Position numbers and translations under genes: made by a program. The notes under the pieces are model-generated. The model was not told the DNA's origin, ran no database searches, and saw only the letters and a list, made by a program, of their open reading frames with translations. 56,004 bases of DNA from an uncultured Brachyspira sp. (GTDB lineage: Bacteria > Spirochaetota > Brachyspiria > Brachyspirales > Brachyspiraceae), in assembly GCF_944393015.1 (NCBI RefSeq), contig NZ_CALXYQ010000016.1, positions 1-56,004 of the forward strand, in the 5' to 3' direction. This document shows, piece by piece, positions 42,398-56,004 of this stretch (its first letter is position 1; each line of letters begins with the position of its first letter).

Positions 42398-42640
42398 AAA
42401 TAATTTTTTTGAATTTTAAATATCTGCAGGGCTTTGCCCCGCACCCCAGTTCTTTTGTTGGCACAAAGAACCAAAAAGCCTGCATTTTTAATCTAAATTT
42501 AGGTTATATCCTATATTTAATAAATATTTTTCAAATATAAAGTTCTAGTAATTGAGTTTTTTGCTACTTTTTTGTGCGGAAAAAAGTAGATAATATATAT
42601 AAAGTACATCAGTTGACAAAGTTAAAAATTTTTAGTATAT
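42370..42640 (+). repeat. Dispersed structured repeat, copy B
   Basis: Starts TTATACCTAAACAACTATAT and carries TGCAGGGC-TTT-GCCCCGCA (42425-42443) and GTTCTTTTGT/ACAAAGAAC (42449-42471). The distal part (GTGCGGAAAAAAGTAGATAA) is diverged. Its end runs into the 3' end of psuG and includes that gene's stop codon. The 272 bases between the ATPase frame and psuG contain nothing else. Confidence 0.82.
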
Positions 42641-51156: not shown

Positions 51157-51468
51157 TATAACTAAACAATTACATTTTATTAATTTATATATTTTGTAAA
51201 TGTATTATCAACTTTTTCCCGCCGCATACGCTCTGCGGACTTCGTCAAAGTTGCTGCCGCAGGCACGCTTTGCGAAAGTGCAAGTATAAAATTAGTATTA
51301 AATCATACTAAAATTGTCTTATATGTAAGATAACCTATTAAATAAAATCCTATATGTAGCCTTTTTGCTTCTTTGTGGCAACAAAAGAAGTGGGGTGCGG
51401 GGCAAAGCCCTGCAAATATTTTAAATTTAAAAAATTTATTTTTAACAAAAAATATTTGTTTAGGTATA
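51157..51468 (-). repeat. Dispersed structured repeat, copy C, with terminal inverted repeats
   Basis: A 312-bp element on the minus strand. Its ends (51157-51183 and 51442-51468) are inverted repeats identical at 22 of 27 positions. It carries the TGCAGGGC/GCCCCGCA and CTTCTTTTGT/ACAAAGAAG stems, the TTAGTAT palindrome, a GC-rich part and GGCGGGAAAAAG. Each end read outward gives a -35/-10-like pair with 17 bases: TTAACA-TATATA (51442-51470) and TTAATA-TATATT (51183-51155). Between the SDR start and the MATE stop (51086-51459) there is nothing else of note. Confidence 0.82.
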
Positions 51469-52776
51469 TATAATTCTGTATTTCATAAAAAATACCATAG
51501 CAATAATAAAAGTTATAACTTCTGTAATAGGCATGACATACCAAATACTATCTTTTACAAATATTAAAGGCATTATAAATATTAAAATACCGCTTATTAT
51601 TAGTCCTCTTAATACAGCAATTATAAAAGAAGATGAAGGCTTCATTATTGCCTGAAAATAGTAAGTTGCATATACATTGAAAGGAAGTATTAAAAATGAT
51701 ATAAAATAGGCTCTCATAATATTTTTTGATATAGACAAAGCTTCTTCTGAAGGCTTCATAAATGCTTTCATTAAAAAGTCTGTATTAAAGTATGTGAATA
51801 AAGTATATACTATGCTAAGAACCAAAGCTGAAAATATACTGCATTTTACTGCTGATTTTATTCTCTCCATTTTTCCAGCACCTAAATTAGTTGATATTAT
51901 AGGCTGAGCTGCCTGCCCTATTGCATAAGCTGATGACTGAACTAATATATTAATATTTATTATTACAGAATAAACTGCCAAGGCTGATGTTCCGAAATAT
52001 TTCATTATCTGCCTATTAAACATTAAAGCCAGTATTCCCATTGCTATATCTATAAAGAATGTAGAAAAGCCAATAGAAGCAATATTCTTTGATAATGAAA
52101 ATAATTTATTAACCTTTTGAAATTTCAAAGTATTTTTTTTAGTAAATAAATGAGATATCAATATAGAAGCAGTAATAATTTGTCCTATAGCTGTTGCAAG
52201 TCCTGCACCAAATATACCCATATCGCATATAAACACAAAGAAATAATCACCGAATACATTGAAAATACCTCCTGCCATAACTCCTAAAGTGGCTTTCATA
52301 GGGGCATTATCGTTTCTAAGAAATGCAGCAAAAAATTGACTGAAAGCAAATAGAGGAAGAATAATTTTTATAGGAAGAAAATATCTTTTAGCTAAATTGA
52401 GCAGTACTTCATCAGCACCGAAAAAATAAAGTATATTATCTTCAAATATTAATGATAATATCCAAACTATAAATATTACTATTGATAAAGCAATAAATGA
52501 GGCGGTAAAGAAATTATTTTGTTTATCATATTCTCCTGAGCCTTTTGCCTTACTGAAAAGTACAGAGCCTCCTATACCAAAAAGAAGTCCTATACCATAT
52601 ATTACATTCCATATAGGAGCAAATACTGCCAAAGCAGCAGCCCCATTATCGCCCTCATATTGTCCAACCATAGCAACATCAACTATAGAATAAATAGCAG
52701 CTATCAATGCACTTCCAAAACTAGCAGATAAATATTTAAAAAATATTTTTTTTACATCTGTTTTTAGCATATCCAT
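51460..52776 (-). CDS. MATE-family multidrug efflux transporter
   Basis: 438 residues with about 12 helices in two halves, NorM/DinF/VmrA-type MATE. Typical segments: SIVDVAMVGQYEG in helix 1-2, and QAAQPIISTNLGAGKMERIK after helix 7. It exports cationic drugs with Na+ or H+ in exchange. GGAG lies 8 bases before ATG at 52776. A leader with a terminator hairpin and an overlapping small reading frame lies between promoter and gene. The final codons and stop are in the end of repeat copy C. Confidence 0.92.
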   Translation of the reverse strand: MDMLKTDVKKIFFKYLSASFGSALIAAIYSIVDVAMVGQYEGDNGAAALAVFAPIWNVIYGIGLLFGIGGSVLFSKAKGSGEYDKQNNFFTASFIALSIVIFIVWILSLIFEDNILYFFGADEVLLNLAKRYFLPIKIILPLFAFSQFFAAFLRNDNAPMKATLGVMAGGIFNVFGDYFFVFICDMGIFGAGLATAIGQIITASILISHLFTKKNTLKFQKVNKLFSLSKNIASIGFSTFFIDIAMGILALMFNRQIMKYFGTSALAVYSVIININILVQSSAYAIGQAAQPIISTNLGAGKMERIKSAVKCSIFSALVLSIVYTLFTYFNTDFLMKAFMKPSEEALSISKNIMRAYFISFLILPFNVYATYYFQAIMKPSSSFIIAVLRGLIISGILIFIMPLIFVKDSIWYVMPITEVITFIIAMVFFMKYRIIYT

Positions 52777-52874
52777 AAATAAACTCCAATATTAAAGTTT
52801 AAAAACAAAAAAGGCTGAATAAGAAATCTAATAATTAGACATCTTATCCAACCTTTGGTATTTTTTCTCTCCAA
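52764..52874 (-). CDS. Putative leader peptide upstream of the MATE gene
   Basis: A 36-residue frame starting at TTG 52874, with GGAGG 5 bases upstream. It reads through the terminator hairpin and ends just inside the MATE gene. The peptide is MERKNTKGWIRCLIIRFLIQ followed by a hydrophobic part. A strong ribosome site with no other gene behind it argues for translation. If translated, ribosomes would cover the terminator's left arm, which fits drug-responsive attenuation. Confidence 0.45.
   Translation of the reverse strand: MERKNTKGWIRCLIIRFLIQPFLFLNFNIGVYLWIC
52813..52853 (-). terminator. Attenuator hairpin in the MATE leader
   Basis: On the minus strand, GGTTGGATAAGA...TCTTATTCAGCC (52853-52842 with 52824-52813, 12 bp with two G-T pairs), an internal 2+2 loop, then TCTAA/TTAGA, followed by TTTTTTGTTTTT. 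Upstream CTTAT (52878-52874) can pair with ATAAG (52847-52843) and would break the terminator stem, so two exclusive structures are possible. Confidence 0.75.
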
Positions 52875-52900
52875 TAAGTCCTCCGATGAACTTGACATGT

Positions 52901-52928
52901 ATTATATCATATACAATTTATAAGTCAA
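52901..52928 (-). promoter_or_regulatory. MATE operon promoter
   Basis: On the minus strand, TTGACT (52923-52928), 16 bases, TATAAT (52901-52906). Transcript would start near 52894, giving a leader of about 118 bases. The rest of the gap to the 53077 gene has nothing I can support. Confidence 0.7.
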
Positions 52929-53076
52929 ATTTTGGACTAATATTTTTTTATAAATACTAAATTTTATTTCAGTACTTATCATATTTATTTATTGATATTT
53001 TTTACATAATATATTATATTAGTATAGTATAAAGTGTATTATTATAGAAAAAATATAAATTAAGAAGATTAAATTT

Positions 53077-55810: not shown

Positions 55811-56004
55811 ATATATCAACTTTTCCCGCCGCAAAAGTTGCAAAAAGTGAAAATATAAAATTAGTATTAAATAATACTAATTTTGTCTTACTTGTAATAT
55901 AAAATATTAAATTTAAGTTAAAATATGGCCTTTTTGCTTCTTTGTGGCAACAAAAGAAGTGGGGTGCGGGGCAAAGCCCTGCAAATATTTTAAATTTAAA
56001 AAAT
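55811..56004 (-). repeat. Dispersed structured repeat, copy D, cut by the window end
   Basis: On the minus strand. It carries the same TGCAGGGC/GCCCCGCA and CTTCTTTTGT/ACAAAGAAG stems, the TTAGTATT/AATACTAA palindrome and GGCGGGAAAAGTTGA. The GC-rich middle of copy C is missing. The left end lies beyond the window. The rest of the 383 bases after moxR (55681-55810) is AT-rich with nothing else I can support. Confidence 0.82.

Follow-up and report, generated by a model that had tools for sequence, protein, structure and literature searches.

A probable riboswitch-type transcription attenuator ahead of a MATE efflux gene in Brachyspira, found also in other phyla

The MATE gene and its leader

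The window (the whole stretch of 56,004 nucleotides [nts] analyzed here, from an uncultured Brachyspira sp.) carries a gene whose product matches the MATE family (PF01554; E = 2.5e-35), in agreement with the initial annotation; the closest NCBIfam model is PRK09575, with a score below its cutoff. The strong promoter that had been described upstream is present, and a leader of about 87 nt lies between it and the gene. The features of the locus, in the order of transcription, are as follows.

52922-52940, minus strand: conserved element TTAGTCCAAAATTTGACTT, which overlaps the -35 box and forms an imperfect inverted repeat (genome search)
52901-52928, minus strand: promoter TTGACT-16-TATAAT (11/12 matches; conserved in Brachyspira leader alignment A1)
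near 52893-52896, minus strand: predicted transcription start
52876-52893, minus strand: P1 hairpin AAGUUC-AUCGGA-GGACUU with the invariant CGGAGG core (covariation; exact P1 register uncertain)
52885-52888, minus strand: pseudoknot 5' element CAUC, in loop 1 (covaries with 52840-52843)
52855-52874, minus strand: P1b, a small hairpin UUGG...CCAA (sequence; matching hairpin in relatives)
52764-52874, minus strand: 36-codon TTG leader frame that extends into the MATE start (judged fortuitous; not conserved)
52807-52856, minus strand: intrinsic terminator, a 14- to 15-bp stem with a 6-bp upper hairpin, then six T (folding)
52842-52856, minus strand: terminator left arm AAAGGUUGGAUAAGA (folding and alignment)
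52840-52843, minus strand: pseudoknot 3' element GAUG, in the terminator left arm (covariation)
52826-52840, minus strand: top hairpin (helix 3) of the terminator (5 of 6 pairs changed on both sides)
52807-52824, minus strand: terminator right arm UCUUAUUCAGCC plus U tract (folding)
52784-52787, minus strand: GGAG, the ribosome site of the MATE gene (sequence)
51460-52776, minus strand: MATE efflux gene, 438 aa

The full intrinsic terminator placed between promoter and gene by the initial annotation was borne out by folding. The 87-nt leader folds at -28.1 kcal/mol, versus -13.75 ± 2.73 kcal/mol for shuffled sequences (z = -5.3; 0/200 as stable), because of the terminator stem, its upper hairpin, and the six U's; the leader thus has a GC-containing stem that is more stable than chance and is followed by a U tract. 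A simple terminator scan of the window made no call here, probably because of its loop limit of at most 8 nt.

The promoter-leader region had a DNA match in 21 of 26 Brachyspira genomes, and in the Brachyspira alignments the promoter, TTCATCGGAGG, and GGATAAGATG were nearly invariant. Elsewhere in the window, a repeat whose core is palindromic, GCCTTTTTGCTTCTTTGTGGCAACAAAAGAAGTGGGGTGCGGGGCAAAGCCCTGCA, is dispersed over three sites, 42425-42443, 51396-51414, and 55965-55983, in each case together with about 40 bases upstream. These three copies have no mismatches in the core, and none would be expected by chance.

Covarying stems and a pseudoknot

When the leader was sought in other Brachyspira, as the initial annotation had proposed, and in other taxa, and was tested for covariation, the RNA proved to be conserved, and both its stems and a pseudoknot covary. 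The conserved RNA consists of a 5' hairpin (...CAUCGGAGG...), to which a second one is added in most cases, and the terminator (GGAUAAGAUG...) with its top hairpin, plus a pseudoknot between the loop of the 5' hairpin and the terminator arm. The GGAUAAG of the left arm is nearly invariant across phyla.

In a 43-sequence alignment, A6, 92.2% of the cells in nested stems were paired, and 16 of 25 pairs had double changes. There were 146 doubly changed cells, versus 47 in shuffles (0/500 as good) and 5 to 32 in slid controls; A6 was fitted to the model, which favors nested stems, and the slid controls, which fall far below, share that bias only partly. For P1, 82% of the cells were paired and 4 of 6 pairs had changes on both sides, with an ambiguous register. 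P1b is weak in the window, well formed in relatives, and much reduced in some members.

The pseudoknot was left out of every covariance model and was tested by comparing loop 1 (before CGGAGG) with the bases after GGATAA. At least 3 bp could form in 37 of 41 distinct loop combinations, versus 26.7 in shuffles (0/5,000 as good). A separate count gave the full 3 bp in 38 of 43, versus 23.9 (0/20,000). The versions found were CAUC/GAUG, CAC/GUG, UGC/GCA, CGC/GCG, UAGC/GCUA, and CUC/GAG.

By computation, the GAUG and the adjoining left arm can either kiss loop 1 or form the full terminator, and about 14 kcal/mol of stem energy is lost when GAUAAGAUG is kept from pairing. Thus, two exclusive folds exist, as had been claimed, but the alternative fold is the pseudoknot between the CAUC of the P1 loop and the GAUG of the terminator, not the pairing of CTTAT with ATAAG that the initial annotation put forward. 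Those two segments are indeed complementary, with CTTAT at 52875-52879 and ATAAG in the left arm, but their pairing is confined to the Brachyspira MATE_A leader type (1 of 59 leaders elsewhere). We rejected this anti-terminator; the P1 AAG/CUU arms explain the match.

Distribution of the RNA and the genes behind it

Brachyspira has a second leader type with the same signature, in which the top hairpin is rewritten (ACGGG/CCCGU for UCUAA/UUAGA); the MATE behind it is only 24% identical to that of the window. R1, a covariance model built from the Brachyspira leaders, detected the RNA in Treponema, again ahead of MATE. In one Clostridia genome the RNA is followed by an orthologue of the window MATE, 56% identical. 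When the second MATE subfamily served as bait, 70 loci were obtained, about half with the RNA directly upstream.

Broader models (R2 and R3) gave matches in 26 of 391 Clostridia, where the weaker matches are not all real; in 51 of 250 genomes in the family to which the Lachnospiraceae genome L114 belongs; and in 8 of 348 genomes in the phylum to which the Acidaminococcaceae genome L117 belongs, where, too, not every match is real, with 10 of 61 in one order there. Model matches on the reverse strand reflected the palindrome of the terminator and were excluded. The RNA ranges over Brachyspira, Treponema, Lachnospiraceae, Ruminococcus, and Negativicutes. A plasmid search found one copy, on Treponema saccharophilum plasmid pTS2 (NZ_AP025290.1), where the gene that follows carries a MATE annotation; a phage search gave no match. 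In a literature search we found no paper on such an RNA in Brachyspira.

Downstream genes were counted in 47 contexts, comprising leaders from the whole-genome scans plus L148 (another locus of a bait genome), with the MATE-bait loci left out; these contexts come mostly from Lachnospiraceae and Negativicutes. MATE, MFS, ABC-F, or GNAT genes followed 44 of the 47 leaders, and 3 had no gene assignment. MATE genes accounted for 34 (19 orthologues of the window MATE, 13 of the second subfamily, and 2 of further types) and MFS genes for 8, of two kinds, one of them Bcr/CflA-like. One leader preceded an ABC-F gene that passes the NCBIfam cutoff for ribosomal-protection-like proteins, and one preceded an Eis-type GNAT acetyltransferase. 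No context had sugE, a PRK07324 transaminase, PnuC, or a carboxylase. At L206, a ribosomal-protection-like ABC-F gene lies behind the same RNA, with the leader near 1500 on the minus strand. Leaders from the order of genome G703 and its relatives (L200, L202, L203, L207, L164, and L166) have a much longer insertion atop the terminator, with an MFS transporter family behind them.

Four Brachyspira loci, of which three have no MATE gene (L017, L019, and L020) and one a broken MATE (L016), have kept the terminator, but their CAUCGGAGG part is decayed. L018, also Brachyspira, has MATE and terminator intact and the aptamer partly deleted. On these sequences, the aptamer goes when the MATE gene goes, with L018 the one exception. 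Like L018, four Ruminococcus MATE genes (L102, L111, L126, and L088) have the family terminator and a reduced or missing 5' aptamer; these leaders are possibly decayed or altered versions.

The proposed switch and comparison with known RNA classes

The terminator, the covarying stems, and the pseudoknot support the proposal of the initial annotation that a regulated transcription attenuator precedes the MATE gene. Its alternative suggestion of a small riboswitch is the one we have kept, given a covarying RNA that is conserved across phyla before genes of efflux and resistance types. The leader is probably a riboswitch-type attenuator acting as an ON switch, similar to guanidine-IV and to its orphan variant Gd4v but forming a sequence family of its own. 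Its ligand is probably not guanidine.

RNA polymerase would start shortly before the P1 hairpin. According to the computed fold and terminator, the left arm AAAGGUUGGAUAAGA would by default pair with UCUUAUUCAGCCUUU and transcription would stop at 52807-52812. A ligand may stabilize kissing of the P1 loop CAUCGGA with the GAUG of the left arm, a pairing that the covariation demonstrates, and this form would be favored while the terminator is still incomplete. Kissing would then block the upper terminator and allow read-through into the MATE gene, whose product may export the ligand or a related toxin. More tentatively, the RNA could be a third, previously undescribed branch of the guanidine-IV/Gd4v fold that is widespread among gut anaerobes (51 of 250 Lachnospiraceae genomes), senses a gut toxin or antibiotic-like compound and turns on defense genes (MATE, MFS, ABC-F, and GNAT).

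If this interpretation is correct, efflux genes of many gut bacteria, including Brachyspira, would be turned on by a small-molecule-sensing RNA, the ligand would reveal the real purpose of these multidrug pumps, and one RNA fold, that of guanidine-IV, would have been retuned to other ligands. Because the pseudoknot exists in several base-pair versions, compensatory mutations offer a direct test of the switch; the family also supplies a defined list of putative ligand-controlled transporters for metabolite screens.

The main control might instead lie at the promoter, with a repressor on the 19-bp element TTAGTCCWAAATTTGACTT and a leader that only tunes expression. A search for the TTAGTCCAAAATTTGACTT element at ≤2 mismatches gave matches in 22 of 26 Brachyspira genomes (a control pattern gave 1 match). 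Most of these genomes have a single copy, and almost all copies precede one of the two MATE leader types; the element is nearly unique to two MATE promoters per genome and is possibly the operator of a regulator. However, the element is absent from the leader-bearing loci read outside Brachyspira, where the RNA is conserved, and the covariation of the RNA needs an explanation of its own. We consider promoter control as the main layer unlikely; initiation and attenuation may both be controlled. Still less likely is control of termination by a protein bound to the RNA in place of a small molecule. The conserved single-stranded GGA and the hairpins could form a protein site, but no gene for an RNA-binding regulator was linked in the loci read, a compact pseudoknot inside the terminator matches metabolite riboswitches, and the RNA is found across phyla with varied genes.

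Induction by ribosome stalling on a leader peptide, the other mechanism of the initial annotation, was rejected as very improbable because the frame is not conserved. The window does have the GGAGG and a 36-codon TTG frame that overlaps the start of MATE, and one ABC-F gene of the ribosomal-protection type lies behind the same RNA. In fifteen other Brachyspira homologues, however, the frame has 27, 9, 36, 27, 15, 9, 9, 9, 15, 25, 37, 37, 14, 7, and 9 codons (a range of 7 to 37 over all 16), with frameshifts between sequences 98 to 99% identical in DNA, and elsewhere only 11 of 59 leaders keep it open for at least 20 codons; most other taxa lack the frame. The GGAGG is part of the invariant RNA core, and in most leaders elsewhere no start codon with an open frame follows it. 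The TTG frame is under no selection as a frame.

The riboswitch-type reading was compared with known RNA classes. An Rfam search with the leader gave no match at the gathering score, and at E ≤ 10 the best matches (microRNA hairpins and the like) were all far below their cutoffs and are chance. Guanidine-I, -II, and -III, T-box, and glycine riboswitches gave no match at either level; the glycine riboswitch was rejected, and the vague likeness to glycine aptamers that had been remarked on was not sustained. The guanidine-I riboswitch (RF00442) also precedes export genes in Clostridia (sugE loci), but its model did not match the window leader even at E = 10. Rfam 15 likewise had no match to the transaminase-linked Gd4v leaders or to a guanidine-IV-like sugE leader, and therefore its silence on the guanidine-IV group is uninformative.

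Most Gd4v RNAs (>50%) precede a PRK07324 transaminase, others GNAT or MATE genes, and an ON switch by the same kissing mechanism has been proposed for them (PMC9788692). A first transaminase search gave loci without Gd4v-type leaders. Among PRK07324 genes fetched in the order of G703, four leaders fit the published description, and we identify them as Gd4v on that description, not on the published alignment. Two (L239 and L242) have the form ...CCCUGUCACCGGAU...GCAGGUAAU-[hairpin]-UGAAAGGC..., and the other two (L240 and L243) have CACCGG and GGU elements in common. At L240, two predicted tRNA genes adjoin the leader region.

The likeness to Gd4v is considerable: two hairpins joined by a pseudoknot, of which the 3' one is the terminator with an extra top hairpin; loop 1 CACCGGA, compared with CAUCGGA in the window and CAC-n-CGGA in Treponema; loop 2 GGUAAU, compared with GAUG and GGUG, respectively; and a position ahead of MATE and GNAT genes in gut bacteria, as a predicted ON switch. 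Because of this shared architecture and the similar loop cores, and because MATE and GNAT genes are listed for both the guanidine-IV and Gd4v motifs (PMC9788692), the RNA might be a plain member of Gd4v, or MATE-linked guanidine-IV, sensing the same ligand. We regard this as the strongest alternative, but a rather doubtful one. By covariance model the window RNA is a separate sequence family: R3 matched no leader in 12 PRK07324 loci at E ≤ 5 (one 9.4-bit chance match fell elsewhere) and reached 12.3 bits in one such locus with filters off. The window RNA has P1b, CGGAGGG, and GGAUAAG(RUG), which the transaminase-linked leaders lack; its 47 contexts have MATE in 34, GNAT in 1, and transaminase or sugE in none; and it occurs in Spirochaetota, a phylum not listed for Gd4v.

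With guanidine-IV (the GGAM-1 or mepA motif), for which the kissing and read-through mechanism has been demonstrated (PMC7736828, PMC11611296), the window RNA shares the kissing loop into the terminator, the transcriptional ON switch, MATE among the targets, presence in Spirochaetes, and, in its Treponema form, A-C/G-U kissing pairs. A sugE leader (L259) that we read as likely guanidine-IV, CUACCGAGUAG ... UUAGGUCUUAG, has kissing elements in common with the window RNA and is without a separate top hairpin. The differences are the top hairpin, never present in the sugE-linked guanidine-IV set, and the lack of sugE (COG2076), PnuC, or carboxylase genes in the 47 contexts. We filed the RNA in neither class because one defining feature of each failed: for Gd4v the sequence match, and for guanidine-IV the absence of a top hairpin and the association with sugE. 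Some of these MATE leaders may already stand in the published Gd4v or guanidine-IV alignments.
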